A DNA stretch of 64,000 bases, from contig NZ_JAIUZR010000005.1 in NCBI RefSeq assembly GCF_020171465.1, positions 434,001 to 498,000 of the forward strand, read 5' to 3'. Position 1 is the stretch's first letter. Every line of letters starts with the position of its first letter. Origin of the DNA: Lutimonas saemankumensis. GTDB lineage: Bacteria > Bacteroidota > Bacteroidia > Flavobacteriales > Flavobacteriaceae. Below are positions 55,111 through 61,510 of the stretch, piece by piece. The position numbers were made by a program, and so were the translations under genes. Below the pieces are notes generated by a model that searched no databases, was not told where the DNA came from, and saw only the letters and a program-made list of their open reading frames with translations.

Positions 55111-56574
55111 TTGAAGAAATTAAGAGACATATTATACGGGGTTTCGGTAGAATCAGTAAGCGGTTCTACGGATGTAATGGTAAGTGCTCTTGAGTTCGAT
55201 TCCAGAAAGATCAGCGCTGATTCAGTTTTTGTCGCTCAAAAAGGGCTTCAATTTGACGGCCATCAATTTATTGAAAATGCCATTCAGGATGGGGCCAAAG
55301 TTGTCATATGTCAGCAGTTCCCCGACAGGATGAATGATCAGGTGACCTATGTCAAAGTTAAGGACAGTGATGAAGCCTTGGCGATTCTGGCAGCGAATTT
55401 CTATGACAACCCTTCTGAGGAACTCACTTTGGTTGGCGTTACAGGAACGAATGGAAAAACTACAATCGCCACGCTGCTTGCCGAGCAATTTAAGAAAGCG
55501 GGTTATAAAAGCGGTTTGATTTCTACCATAAAAATCGTGGTAGGTGAAAAGGAAGTTGATGCGACACATACTACTCCGGATTCCCTCACTATTAACAGAT
55601 TTTTGAGGGAAATGGCTGATCAGGGAGTAAGTCACTGCTTTATGGAGGTGAGTTCACATGGTATCCATCAGAAAAGGACGGCCGGGTTAAACTTTAAAGG
55701 TGGAATTTTCACGAATTTGACCCATGACCATTTGGACTATCATAAAACCTTTGCGGAATACAGAGATGTTAAAAAATCATTCTTTGATCATCTTTCTCCG
55801 CAGTCATTTGCTCTTGTAAATATTGATGATAAGAACGGTCAGGTCATGCTGCAAAATACAAGGGCAAAGAAATTTTCATATGCTTTGAAGACCGAAGCTG
55901 ATTACAAAGCGAGGATCATAGAAAATCAGTTTAACGGACTTCTTTTGAACATTGACGGACAGGAGGTCTGGACCAAATTAATCGGATCATTCAATGCGTA
56001 TAACCTTTTGGCAATTTATGCCTGTTCTGACCTTATCGGCATGGATAGATATGAAAACCTAAGGGTTTTGAGCGAGCTTGAGAACGTATCGGGCCGTTTT
56101 CAGCACGCCATATCCAAAGGAGGAATAAATGCAATTATCGATTATGCCCATACGCCAGATGCTCTTAAGAATGTTCTGGAAACCATTAATTCCATTCGAA
56201 CTTTCAATGAGCAGGTGATCACGGTTGTTGGATGCGGCGGAGACAGAGACAGGGAGAAACGGCCTAAAATGGGAAACATCGCCTCAAGCTTAAGTAATCA
56301 GGTTGTGTTTACTTCAGATAATCCCAGAAGTGAAGATCCTGAACAGATATTAAAAGAAGTTGAAGCTGGTGTAAGGCCGGAGAATTATAAAAAAACGATA
56401 ACCATAGTTGACAGAAAGCAAGCCATTAAAACCGCCTGTAAATTGGCGAATGAAGGAGATATCATATTGGTTGCGGGGAAAGGGCATGAAACATATCAGA
56501 TCATCGGAAATGAAAAAACCGGGTTCGATGATTTTGTCATTACAAAGCAAATATTAACCGAACTGAACAAATAA
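55111..56574 (+). CDS. murE: UDP-N-acetylmuramoyl-L-alanyl-D-glutamate--2,6-diaminopimelate ligase
   Basis: MurE adds the third stem residue. From TTG 55111, 1 base after the ftsI stop, the 487-aa protein begins LKKLRDILYGV, matching the conserved family start; no ATG exists until about residue 23. The P-loop GVTGTNGKTTIA lies near residue 110, the THDHLDYHKTFAEY segment in the centre, and DNPRSEDP near residue 405 is the meso-diaminopimelate specificity motif. So the wall is expected to carry mDAP. All three Mur ligase domains are intact, in contrast to the murD remnant downstream. Confidence 0.95.
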   Translation: MKKLRDILYGVSVESVSGSTDVMVSALEFDSRKISADSVFVAQKGLQFDGHQFIENAIQDGAKVVICQQFPDRMNDQVTYVKVKDSDEALAILAANFYDNPSEELTLVGVTGTNGKTTIATLLAEQFKKAGYKSGLISTIKIVVGEKEVDATHTTPDSLTINRFLREMADQGVSHCFMEVSSHGIHQKRTAGLNFKGGIFTNLTHDHLDYHKTFAEYRDVKKSFFDHLSPQSFALVNIDDKNGQVMLQNTRAKKFSYALKTEADYKARIIENQFNGLLLNIDGQEVWTKLIGSFNAYNLLAIYACSDLIGMDRYENLRVLSELENVSGRFQHAISKGGINAIIDYAHTPDALKNVLETINSIRTFNEQVITVVGCGGDRDREKRPKMGNIASSLSNQVVFTSDNPRSEDPEQILKEVEAGVRPENYKKTITIVDRKQAIKTACKLANEGDIILVAGKGHETYQIIGNEKTGFDDFVITKQILTELNK

Positions 56575-56583
56575 AATCCCAGA

Positions 56584-57816
56584 ATGCTATATTATTTATT
56601 TGAATTTTTAGATGAGAACACAAGCCTTCCGGGAACTGGACTGTTTCAGTATATTTCCTTCAGATCGGCTCTTGCCTTTGCTTTTTCACTTCTGATTTCA
56701 ACAATTTACGGAAGAAAAATCATTGACAGGCTGAGAAGTTTACAGGTTGGAGAGTCTATCAGAGACCTCGGTCTTGAAGGGCAGGTTCAAAAACAAGGAA
56801 CACCTACCATGGGTGGAGTCATCATTATTTTAGCCACGTTGATTCCGGTATTTCTCTTCGCAAGACTCGACAATATCTATATCATCATTTTGATAGTTAC
56901 CACGGTTTGGATGGGAATTATCGGGTTTATCGATGATTATATAAAGGTGTTTAAAAAGAACAAAGAAGGGCTCAAAGGAAGATTTAAGATTGTGGGGCAA
57001 ATTACCTTGGGGGCATTTGTAGGACTTATGTTATACTTTAACCCTGATGTTGTTGTCAAAGAAAAGTTGAGGCATGGTGAAGTTGTTATTAGTCAAGAGC
57101 TTACCATTTCTTCAAATCGATTTGGCGAAGCCGAAAAATCGACTAAAACCACGATTCCATTTGTTAAAAACAATGAATTTGATTACGCAAATCTACTGAC
57201 CTGGATGGGTGACTGGGCCAAGGACTATGTCTGGCTGTTTTTTGTGGTCATCGTAATTTTTATAATTACGGCCGTTTCAAACGGAGCTAACTTAACGGAT
57301 GGAATCGATGGACTGGCAGCAGGGAGTTCGGCCATTATCGTTTTAGCGCTGGCCATCTTTGCATGGGTTTCGGGTAATATCATTTTTGCCGATTACCTGA
57401 ACGTAATGTATATACCGAACTCGGGTGAGATCACAATTTTCGTAAGTGCTTTTGTAGGAGGTCTGGTCGGTTTTCTTTGGTACAATACCTATCCTGCCCA
57501 GGTATTCATGGGGGATACAGGAAGTCTTACAATAGGTGCGGTAATCGCTGTAATTGCATTATCGGTGCGAAAGGAATTTCTGATTCCGATTCTCGCAGGA
57601 ATATTTTTAGCCGAGAATCTGTCCGTGGTATTTCAGGTGTCGTATTTCAAGTATACAAGAAAGAAATCCGGTGTGGGAAAGCGAATCTTTTTGATGGCCC
57701 CTTTACACCATCATTATCAAAAACGTGGGTATCACGAAAGTAAAATAGTAACGAGGTTTTGGATCGTAGGGATATTACTGGCTGTAATATCGATTTTGAC
57801 CCTCAAAGTAAGATAA
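56584..57816 (+). CDS. mraY: Phospho-N-acetylmuramoyl-pentapeptide transferase
   Basis: MraY attaches UDP-MurNAc-pentapeptide to undecaprenyl phosphate, forming lipid I. The 410-aa protein has about ten membrane segments, with [28 protein letters not shown] and [14 protein letters not shown] containing the Asp residues that bind Mg2+, and [12 protein letters not shown] as the HHH motif near the C-terminus. It has an extra loop of about 45 residues after the [15 protein letters not shown] segment, typical of Bacteroidota. Followed by only 28 bases before the murD remnant. Confidence 0.95.
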
Positions 57817-57844
57817 ACAAACTATAACAATAAAATAAATATAC

Positions 57845-58393
57845 ATGAGTATTTCATCTTTTGCCTTGCAAACCAATTTTAATGTTAAAAATGCTATGGC
57901 TTCAAGTACATTGTCTGACTTGATGAAGGTAAGAAAGGAAACGATCAGAAATTGCCTTTCTGATTTTGAGAATGAAGAACACAGGCTGGAAAAGGTGTTG
58001 ACCATTAATGGATCGCAATACATCAATGATTCAAAGGCGCTAAATGTTAATGCTACCTATTACGCGCTGGAATCAATGGAGAATACCACAATCTGGATTG
58101 CGGGCGGAAATGATGATGCCAATGATTATGAAATACTTCTACCTCTGGTCAATGAAAAAGTGAGTGCCATTATATGCCTGGGGGAAAATAACGATAAGCT
58201 CATTGAAACTTTTGGGAACGTAGTGGACTTTATGATAGAAACCACTTGTATCAGGGATGCGGTAAAAATTGCTTATAAACTAAGCAAGGAAGGTGAGAGT
58301 ATTCTTTTTTCACCGGCAGGTAAATGCGAGAGGGCAAACGAGAGTTTTGAAGACAGAGGGAATCGATTCAAGGAAGCTGTAAGACATCTTTAG
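57845..58393 (+). pseudogene. MurD remnant: C-terminal Mur ligase part only, open frame of 182 codons
   Basis: The frame aligns with the C-terminal about 40% of MurD. With E. coli numbering (from memory), N13 corresponds to Asn268, H46 to His301, D62 to Asp317 and K64 to Lys319, all kept with correct spacing. The position of Thr321 is Leu66. The SPACASLDQF-type motif has become SPAGKCERAN, so Ser415 is Cys and Leu416 is Glu. GGxDKG is GGNDDA. The whole N-terminal UDP-binding domain and the P-loop are missing, and only 28 bases separate it from mraY, so they are deleted rather than frameshifted. It cannot be a ligase on its own. It has an ATG, no internal stop and normal operon spacing, so it is either a decaying pseudogene or a non-enzymatic protein still expressed. 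Confidence 0.85.
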
Positions 58394-58406: not shown

Positions 58407-59609
58407 ATGAGTAAGTTTTTAGAAAATATTAAAGGAGATAAAACAATTTGGGCAATCATTGCTGTATTGGCCATATTTTCTTTCCTGCCTGTTTACAGCG
58501 CAAGTACGAATCTTGTATATGTAGCGGGTAAAGGAACGACTCTGGGATATTTATTAAAGCATGCTATTTTATTACTACTTGGTTTTGTGATTGTTTATAC
58601 AACGCATAAAGTTCCCTACCGCTATTTTAGTGGGTTATCTGTTCTTATGCTACCCGTTGTAATTTTACTCTTGGTCTATACCCTGGCACAGGGTACTGTT
58701 ATTGAAGGAGCAAATGCCAGCCGATGGATCAGTATACCTTTAATTGGGATAGGATTTCAGACCTCAACCCTTGCATCTGTCGTGGTCATGATCTATGTTG
58801 CCCGATATTTGGCAAGACATAAAGAAAAAGAGATCACTTTTAAAGAAAGTGTGCTTTATATGTGGTTGCCGGTTGGAGCCGTTTTGGCACTGATTTTACC
58901 AGCCAACTTCTCTACGACGGCCATAACATTTACTATGGTTATCATTTTGGTGTTTCTTGGTGGCTATCCAATAAAATACATCGTTTCTATTCTTGGTGTC
59001 GGACTTTTATGCTTTACCTTATTTATTTTAAGCGCAAGAGCGTTTCCCGATGCGATGAAGAACAGCAGGATTTCAACATGGTCTAGCAGGATAGAGAATT
59101 TTGTTTCCGGTGAATCTGAAGATAATTATCAGGCTGAAAAAGCAAAAATTGCAATAGCCTCTGGAGAAATTTATGGCAAAGGGCCAGGAAAGAGCGTTCA
59201 AAAGAATTTTCTTCCGCAGTCATCCTCCGATTTTATTTATGCCATTATTGGAGAGGAATTTGGATTGCTGGGGGCCATTTCAATAATTATGTTTTTCCTG
59301 GGTTTGTTGTTCAGAATTGTGATAATAGCAACAAAATCAACAACGATATTTGGCACTTTGCTATGTCTTGGAGTAGGATTGCCCATTATTTTTCAAGCTA
59401 TGATCAACATGGCGGTTGCGGTTGGGTTATTTCCTGTAACGGGTCAGCCACTTCCCCTTATCAGTACCGGAGGAACTTCAATCTGGATGACCTGTTTCGC
59501 TATTGGAATCGTGTTAAGTGTAAGTGCTTCGGATCACAAAGTAATTGCCGCAAAACAAAAAGAGAAATTAGATAACCCTTTAGATATATTGCATGAAGCA
59601 GTCGGTTAA
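58407..59609 (+). CDS. ftsW: Septal peptidoglycan glycosyltransferase FtsW
   Basis: FtsW is a SEDS-family glycosyltransferase working with FtsI. The 400-aa protein has about ten membrane segments, with [19 protein letters not shown], the PANFSTTAI region, [28 protein letters not shown] (read in pieces), and [17 protein letters not shown], typical SEDS motifs including the catalytic Asp in SSDFIYA. It overlaps the start of murG by 17 bases. FtsW rather than RodA is set by position. Confidence 0.95.
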
Positions 59610-60684
59610 CATATTGCTAAGCGGAGGAGGTACAGGAGGGCATATCTACCCTGCCATAGCCATTGCCAACGAACTCAAGGAAAGATACCCGGAATCGAAT
59701 TTTTTGTTTGTGGGTGCCAAAGGTAGGATGGAAATGGAAAAAGTGCCTCAGTCCGGTTATGAAATAAAGGGTCTTAATATCACAGGCATTCAGAGGAGCC
59801 TGAGTCTAAAGAATCTGACTTTTCCGTTCAAGCTCTTATCAAGTCTGATCAATGCGAAAAAGATCATCAAAAAATTCAAACCCAATGTTGTAATTGGAAC
59901 CGGAGGTTTTGCATCGGGGCCAACACTTTTTATGGCCAATCGAAAGAACATTCCTAGTTTGATACAGGAACAGAATTCTTATCCGGGAATCACAAACAGA
60001 TTATTGGCAAAAAGAGTTCAAAGAATATGCGTTGCTTATGATGGTCTGGATCAATATTTTCCAAAGGATAAGCTAATAAAAACAGGAAATCCAGTGCGTC
60101 AGGATCTTCTGGAAATACATAAAAAGAAAAAGGAAGCAGTAGCTCATTTTAATCTCGACCCCGGAAAAATGACAATCGCCGTTTTGGGAGGTAGCCTGGG
60201 TGCAAGAGCCATAAACAAGGCTCTCGAAAAGCACATACAAGCAATTCTGAAAAATGATGTCCAGGTTATCTGGCAGTCAGGCAAACTGTATTATGACGAA
60301 TACAAGAAGTTTAGCCAAATGGACGGGGTACAGGTTTGGGAGTATGTTCAAAAGATGGATCTGTTGTATGCAGCAGCTGATATACTGGTCAGCCGGGCCG
60401 GCGCCGGATCCATCTCTGAACTATGTATCGTGGGAAAGCCGGTCATATTGATTCCTTCGCCCAATGTTGCAGAAGATCATCAAACACAAAATGCCAAAGC
60501 AATCACGGATAAAAATGCCGGGATACTACTGGAAGAAAAGAATATTGACACCTTGCCTGAAGTGATCAGCTTATTGGTCAAAGATGATGATCAGAGAGGG
60601 GTTCTGGGAGAAAACATAAAAAAACTGGCCTTGCCAAACGCTACTAAGCGAATTGTGGATGAGGTTGATAAAATATTAAAATAG
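59593..60684 (+). CDS. murG: UDP-GlcNAc transferase MurG
   Basis: MurG adds GlcNAc to lipid I to form lipid II at the inner face of the membrane. The 363-aa protein has the N-terminal [49 protein letters not shown], and a second domain with [12 protein letters not shown] and [17 protein letters not shown]. Length and motifs are normal. In related flavobacteria murC follows; here 85 noncoding bases lead to ftsQ. Confidence 0.96.
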
Positions 60685-60715
60685 AATTATGTGCTAAATA
60701 CTTTGGTAACTATGG

Positions 60716-60754
60716 CAACCCTCTTAATTAGTGAGGGGATTAATTAAGGGGTTG
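60716..60754 (+). repeat. Inverted repeat in the murG-ftsQ gap where murC is absent
   Basis: CAACCCTCTTAATTA (60716-60730) and TAATTAAGGGGTTG (60741-60754) form a 14-pair stem with one bulge and a 10-base loop, followed by TTATAGTTTTTTAAAA. It could be an intrinsic terminator with a loose T tract, an attenuating hairpin, or a deletion/rearrangement scar. Confidence 0.6.
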
Positions 60755-60769
60755 TTATAGTTTTTTAAA

Positions 60770-61510
60770 ATGGTAGACAAAATGAAAAAATACGTTAACT
60801 TATTAAAATTCAGTGCACTAGGATTGATAATAGTGTTTTTGTATGGTTTTGCAGCACATAGAAATGCAAAGAAAACCAACGATTCGGTTGAAGTGATTTT
60901 TGAGAATGGTGAGAATCTTTTTATAAGTTATGAAACCGTTAATAAGTTGTTAATACAAAAATTGAAGGCTTATGATAATCAATCGAAAGAAAATATAAAT
61001 TTGAATAATTTAGAAGGATTTTTACAGCGCAACGAAATGATTGAAAACGCTGAGATTTTTCTAACATTAAGTGGGGAATTAGGGGCAATAATTACACAAA
61101 GAACACCTGTTTTAAGAGTAGCAAATGAGACGGAAACCTATTATTACGATAAGTTAGGCACAAAAATGCCATTATCGGATAATTATTCTGCAAGGGTTCC
61201 TTTAACCACTGATACAATTACTGGAGATGGAGGGAAGGATATGATTGTTTTGTCTAATACCATCCGAAATGATGAGTTTTTAAGAAAACAAATCATTGGA
61301 ATTGACCAGATTAATGGGAGTAAATCGAATCAGTTCGAATTAAAAACCCGGATTGGCGATCAGAAGATCATTTTTGGAGATTTGTCAAGAAAGGAAGAGA
61401 AAATTGCTAAACTGAAAGTTTTTTATCAAAAAATAATGTTGGATAGTACCATTTCAGACTATAAAACGATAAACTTAAAATTTTACAATCAAATCGTTTG
61501 TGAAAAATAA
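60770..61510 (+). CDS. ftsQ: Cell division protein FtsQ/DivIB
   Basis: FtsQ links the Z-ring to the septal synthases. The 246-aa protein has one membrane segment (about residues 13-30) and a periplasmic part with a short POTRA-like region and the beta domain; LEGFLQRNEMIENAEIFLTLSGELGAIITQR fits. The start at 60770 is uncertain; ATG at 60782 begins MKKYVNLLKF and is equally possible. Sequence is weakly conserved, as usual, so the symbol rests on domain plus position between murG and ftsA. Confidence 0.85.
   Translation: MVDKMKKYVNLLKFSALGLIIVFLYGFAAHRNAKKTNDSVEVIFENGENLFISYETVNKLLIQKLKAYDNQSKENINLNNLEGFLQRNEMIENAEIFLTLSGELGAIITQRTPVLRVANETETYYYDKLGTKMPLSDNYSARVPLTTDTITGDGGKDMIVLSNTIRNDEFLRKQIIGIDQINGSKSNQFELKTRIGDQKIIFGDLSRKEEKIAKLKVFYQKIMLDSTISDYKTINLKFYNQIVCEK

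Follow-up and report, generated by a model that had tools for sequence, protein, structure and literature searches.

In a 64,000-nucleotide stretch of the Lutimonas saemankumensis genome (contig NZ_JAIUZR010000005.1, positions 434,001 to 498,000; hereafter, the window), the gene murD of the cell-wall cluster is reduced to a stub that encodes only the C-terminal domain of MurD. Walled bacteria are held to need both MurC and MurD, which are antibiotic targets. We show that the Lutimonas clade, a group of marine bacteria, has deleted murC together with the first ~255 codons of murD, leaving the MurD C-terminal domain as a gene of its own, and that a second clade of Flavobacteriaceae acquired this double lesion independently. 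The double loss in two clades suggests that the cell-wall peptide is started in a way not yet described. The lesion in the window comprises the following features:

57845-58393, forward strand: standalone gene of 182 amino acids for the MurD C-terminal domain (the stub), with a match to the MurD profile TIGR01087 at positions 264-440 only, a PF02875 match, a fold match and a ratio of nonsynonymous to synonymous substitution rates (dN/dS) of ~0.05.
57817-57844, no strand: gap of 28 nucleotides (nt) in place of the first ~255 murD codons (UDP-binding and ATPase domains); the outgroup loci L070 and L071 carry full murD here.
60685-60769, no strand: gap of 85 nt between murG and ftsQ, with murC missing; the outgroup loci L070 and L071 carry murC here.

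The stub begins with an ATG, 28 nt downstream of the end of mraY (57816) and 13 nt upstream of the start of ftsW (58407), on the same strand. Its match to TIGR01087 scored 131.7 bits, below the MurD cut-off of 211.95 bits. Residue 4 of the stub aligned to residue 259 of the E. coli MurD chain, placing the start at about residue 256. The protein contains the Mur_ligase_C domain (PF02875) found at the C-terminus of MurD and lacks the Mur_ligase_M ATPase domain with its P-loop; alone, it cannot ligate. An AlphaFold2 model of the stub was confident over residues ~46-182, with blocks at 72-94 in the predicted local distance difference test. The best matches of the model in the PDB were MurD C-terminal domains, at a root-mean-square deviation of 1.7-3.0 Å and with a Foldseek E-value of 1e-11 to MurD structures. 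The original prediction, which was made from the sequence of the window, had described murD as a 182-codon C-terminal piece starting at about residue 256, without the P-loop and UDP-binding domains, and was correct on these points. It had overlooked that murC is likewise gone, with murG ending at 60684 and ftsQ starting at 60770.

Within the Lutimonas clade, ~20 species were found to carry the same stub, some of them represented by isolates or by single-contig genomes. Most sampled genomes of the genus had the stub, and none had a full murD. All loci from L060 to L069 contained it, and murC was absent wherever the locus spanned the murG-ftsQ junction; L061 belongs to Lutimonas halocynthiae CECT 8444, and L060 to a chromosome record. 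The nearest outgroups, L070 and L071, have full murD and murC in the same gene order. The first 14 stubs aligned were 182-183 amino acids long and shared the N-terminus MSIS. No frameshift was seen in the stubs of the clade, in agreement with the open frame noted at first. Comparison of the window with L060 gave a dN/dS of 0.046 for the stub, and other close pairs gave 0.046-0.098, a range like that of murE and murG; the divergence of the stub within the clade was close to that of MurE. We hold the loss pattern and the strong purifying selection on the stub to be all but certain. Measured against the outgroups, the rate of evolution of the stub is 1.5 times that of normal MurD C-terminal domains, and hence its constraint has changed. 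No acceleration, which might have signalled a takeover, was found in MurE, MurG or MraY; the stub alone was faster.

The original prediction had offered, as one of two readings, that the true murD sits elsewhere while the fragment decays, and had called for a check for assembly error. The altered key catalytic residues would fit a pseudogene, but we give this explanation almost no credence: the dN/dS is low, and the same structure recurs in ~20 species, whose single-contig and isolate genomes exclude an assembly error. No full-length MurD was found anywhere in the source genome, nor was a MurC found elsewhere in it. A scan for Mur_ligase_M domains in the source genome (G000) and in G012 recovered only MurE, MurF, one Mpl-type ligase and FolC, and thus no MurD-type ATPase domain; the sister genera additionally possess MurC and MurD. 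In G004 the scan recovered the same four types and an open reading frame (ORF) of 886 amino acids. This ORF (G004:C17:193385-194998), which also has a RimK-type match, and a Mur-ligase-matching ORF of 883 amino acids (G010:C75:24656-25453) are possibly cyanophycin-synthetase-like; of the genomes searched, only these two, both of the Lutimonas clade, had such ORFs.

To place the loss within the family, 396 Flavobacteriaceae genomes, each at least 95% complete, were surveyed. A full MurD was present in 383; the other 13 were five genomes of the Lutimonas genus and eight of three other genera. These eight carry a MurD C-terminal domain stub of ~160-178 amino acids between mraY and ftsW. In those whose contig extends to ftsQ, murC is missing between murG and ftsQ, and none of the eight was found to have a MurC-type ATPase domain other than the Mpl-type domain. 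In a cluster tree built with FastTree, with genome G032 as the outgroup, Lutimonas grouped with outgroups having full MurD (support 1.0), and the other three genera formed a separate clade (0.998). Since the second clade is separate from Lutimonas, the double lesion arose at least twice. G032, from another family, has lost murD entirely, leaving no stub, and has lost murC too. It was the outgroup in the cluster tree and lies near the second clade in the Mpl tree, so that its losses may not be independent of those in that clade. That MurC is gone too and that the change is clade-wide and convergent goes beyond the original prediction, and implies that two pathway steps are bypassed.

Next, we compared the residues of 27 stubs with those of 62 full MurDs, in which T321, K348 and S415 are invariant (E. 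coli numbering). The stub in the window keeps H301, R302, D317 and K319 and has Leu for T321, Asp for K348, Cys for S415 and Glu for L416, so that none of the D-Glu-site residues T321, K348 and S415 is left; the original readings of H301, D317, K319, T321, S415 and L416 hold. Among Lutimonas stubs, T321 was retained in 2/19, K348 in 8/19 and S415 in 11/19. In the second clade, K348 and S415 were kept in none, and T321 in one of the five stubs of g119 and g200. R302 (one Lys) and D317 were kept in 27/27 stubs. In E. coli MurD, R302 touches the ADP alpha-phosphate and serves as a handle in the rotation of the C-terminal domain (PMC4816537). K319 was present in most Lutimonas stubs and in all g119 and g200 stubs, and in no g179 stub. 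The stubs of genus g179 (L240, L241, L242) have also lost the GG motif, with the gene still there, and MurI (glutamate racemase) is absent from the same genomes.

From these residues, the D-Glu-binding side of the stub decays while part of its nucleotide-facing side persists, a pattern that suggests, without proving it, docking against a nucleotide-loaded partner. Because the D-Glu-site residues are lost and Arg302 and Asp317 are kept, we read the stub as a non-catalytic partner of another Mur enzyme. It would no longer bind D-Glu; most likely it would be a partner or regulator, still able to dock either on another Mur ligase, at the face loaded with nucleotide, or on the MraY/MurG/FtsW machinery. 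A retained non-enzymatic role was the second suggestion of the original prediction. It is supported in outline by the strong selection, the loss of D-Glu-site residues and the two origins of the stub. Alternatively, the stub could work in trans, as the C-terminal domain of a ligase whose UDP- and ATP-binding domains come from Mpl (or MurE), in which case Mpl would add L-Ala, and Mpl together with the stub would add D-Glu. Such a chimeric ligase would fit the universal D317 and near-universal R302, the presence of H301, S318, K319 and N322 in the majority of Lutimonas and g119/g200 stubs, and the retention of MurI, and L-Ala is usable by Mpl (PMC3060825). However, we consider it improbable: T321, K348 and S415 are lost in many stubs, the window's included, even where MurI is kept, and the g179 stubs lack K319 as well.

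That MurC and MurD were lost together suggests that they were replaced by a single step in which both residues are added. In the mechanism that we propose, L-Ala-L-Glu would be converted to L-Ala-D-Glu by an enolase-superfamily dipeptide epimerase. The L-Ala-D-Glu dipeptide would then be attached to uridine diphosphate-N-acetylmuramic acid (UDP-MurNAc) in a single step by the Mpl-type ligase, whereupon MurE, MurF, MraY and MurG would proceed as usual. Peptidoglycan would thus be made without MurC and MurD, and in one genus also without MurI, from free L-Ala-D-Glu attached whole, with the orphan MurD C-terminal domain as a separate non-catalytic component selected twice independently. We put this forward tentatively, as somewhat short of an even chance. 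The whole explanation, comprising the double loss, the dipeptide-first route and a non-catalytic stub, we judge to be evenly poised between right and wrong.

Several observations are in line with the dipeptide-first route. Judging by the domains found, the Mpl-type protein is the sole remaining ligase that could act on UDP-MurNAc. An epimerase-type (L-Ala-D/L-Glu) gene is present in the source genome (G000:C4:536218-537261), and such genes occurred in 13/13 MurD-less vs 161/383 MurD-containing Flavobacteriaceae (Fisher p 1.8e-5, counted per genome). MurI is absent in g179 (3/3 genomes) and in G032. Before MurL, according to a review, only MurI and D-amino acid aminotransferase were taken to form D-Glu (PMC5808125). 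Psychrobacter Mpl uses L-Ala-D-Glu at 1.4/min, L-Ala at 0.7/min and the tripeptide at 260/min, and a murC(Ts) mutant was complemented by multicopy E. coli mpl (PMC3060825). The motifs of MurE are intact in every lineage, except that G199 lacks the DYAHxP string. The neighbours of the stub in the window are:

55111-56574, forward strand: murE, intact, with the P-loop GTNGKT, the carbamoyl-Lys region and the DNPR (meso-diaminopimelate, meso-DAP) motif.
56584-57816, forward strand: mraY.
58407-59609, forward strand: ftsW.
59593-60684, forward strand: murG.
60770-61510, forward strand: ftsQ.

Other observations weigh against the route. MurI, which it does not need, persists in the Lutimonas clade as well as in G139, G377 and G220, so D-Glu may still be made and used in those lineages. 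No enzyme making L-Ala-L-Glu was found; searches for ATP-grasp_4 and RimK proteins gave no genus-wide extra ligase, other ligase folds not having been searched. The Mpl-type ligase of MurD-less lineages showed no obvious acceleration or convergent change, only one trivial I/V site, and characterised Mpl strongly prefers the tripeptide (PMC3060825). The epimerase is common in relatives with MurD, and with two or three independent losses only, its co-occurrence is weak at the level of lineages (0.074, three lineages). Both proteins fall under curated family cut-offs. Seven Mpl-type proteins scored 154-187 bits against TIGR01081 (cut-off 388.7) and 230-249 bits against the MurC profile (cut-off 335.1). 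The epimerase scored 146 bits against NF011708 (L-Ala-D/L-Glu epimerase; cut-off 343) and 214 of 400 for DgcA; its closest solved relatives are dipeptide epimerases. G010 lacks both MurI and the epimerase, in an assembly that is 86% complete and with the two genes ~7 kb apart in the genus. Finally, in G032, which has no stub, the epimerase has an apparent export signal. This protein (L283:5643-6806) carries a twin-arginine-type N-terminal signal, unlike the others, and may act outside the cytoplasm.

The retention of MurI in Lutimonas and part of the second clade would also fit non-homologous enzymes that add L-Ala and D-Glu to UDP-MurNAc, or that join L-Ala to MurI-made D-Glu before Mpl acts, leaving the epimerase a purely catabolic role. 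In G407 and G032 the epimerase adjoins apparent NlpC/P60-type genes, the classical context of murein-peptide breakdown. But MurI is absent in g179 and G032, and the ligase searches described above, within the folds that they covered, gave no candidate; we regard this explanation as possible, though rather unlikely. Gene neighbourhoods provided no shared ligase around the epimerase and, around mpl, no new gene common to all lineages. In Lutimonas, an arginine-deiminase/DDAH-like gene, recognised by eye, precedes mpl by ~50 nt on the same strand (L154:7756-8637, L157:7476-8360); it was found neither in the sister genera G022 and G023 nor in the second clade.

If instead de novo dipeptide synthesis has been lost, L-Ala-D-Glu(-DAP) peptides could be scavenged from the walls of other bacteria and attached via Mpl. 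The MurD-less lineages do retain Mpl, and two POT-like peptide transporter genes (identified by eye) lie near mpl in G139 (L226:12912-16385). Yet one species of the clade (L061) has been cultured, MurE is intact and shows no acceleration, which is unexpected under uptake of the whole tripeptide, and MurI is retained in several lineages. Scavenging therefore has a low probability in our view.

The stub and the proposed dipeptide-first route resemble several known systems in part. The stub shares with E. coli-type MurD the sequence and fold of the C-terminal domain, the R302/D317 face and the position in the division and cell wall (dcw) cluster, but it lacks the UDP-binding and ATPase domains and has lost D-Glu-site residues. 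The retained Mpl-type ligase has intact P-loop motifs, and characterised Mpl (murein peptide ligase) takes L-Ala-D-Glu slowly (PMC3060825). Known Mpl recycles the tripeptide L-Ala-gamma-D-Glu-mDAP, whereas here it would start synthesis with a dipeptide. In Xanthomonas, the MurD2/MurL route likewise does without glutamate racemase, and L-Glu is epimerised once the peptide bond has been formed (PMC8788868, PMC5808125). That route, however, retains MurC as well as a full-length MurD2, and its epimerisation takes place on UDP-MurNAc, while here neither ligase is present (the MurD-less genomes scanned had no MurD-type Mur_ligase_M protein, and so no full-length MurD2) and a free dipeptide is proposed. 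The epimerase belongs to the same enolase-superfamily group as the L-Ala-D/L-Glu epimerases (E. coli 1jpd, E 1.8e-35; B. thetaiotaomicron 3iji, E 1.9e-59), whose known role is murein-peptide breakdown; the role proposed here is biosynthetic. The structure-search matches of the stub model included PDB 8qma and 8w9z, which we take to be the MurE-like protein of plastid RNA polymerase, a Mur-ligase fold in a non-enzymatic role. The stub may likewise keep the fold non-enzymatically, but the plastid protein is an RNA polymerase subunit, and the stub is a single domain in a cell-wall cluster. Our searches of the literature on MurC/MurD loss, Lutimonas and dipeptide routes found no description of such a loss, of Mpl-started synthesis or of a lone MurD C-terminal domain.

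The repeated joint loss of MurC and MurD, with the rest of the pathway kept, makes the rule of four sequential Mur ligases testable. The loss pattern also suggests that wall synthesis can begin with Mpl, an enzyme known from recycling alone. A MurD C-terminal domain that stands alone under strong selection offers a clean way to find non-catalytic functions of Mur ligases.
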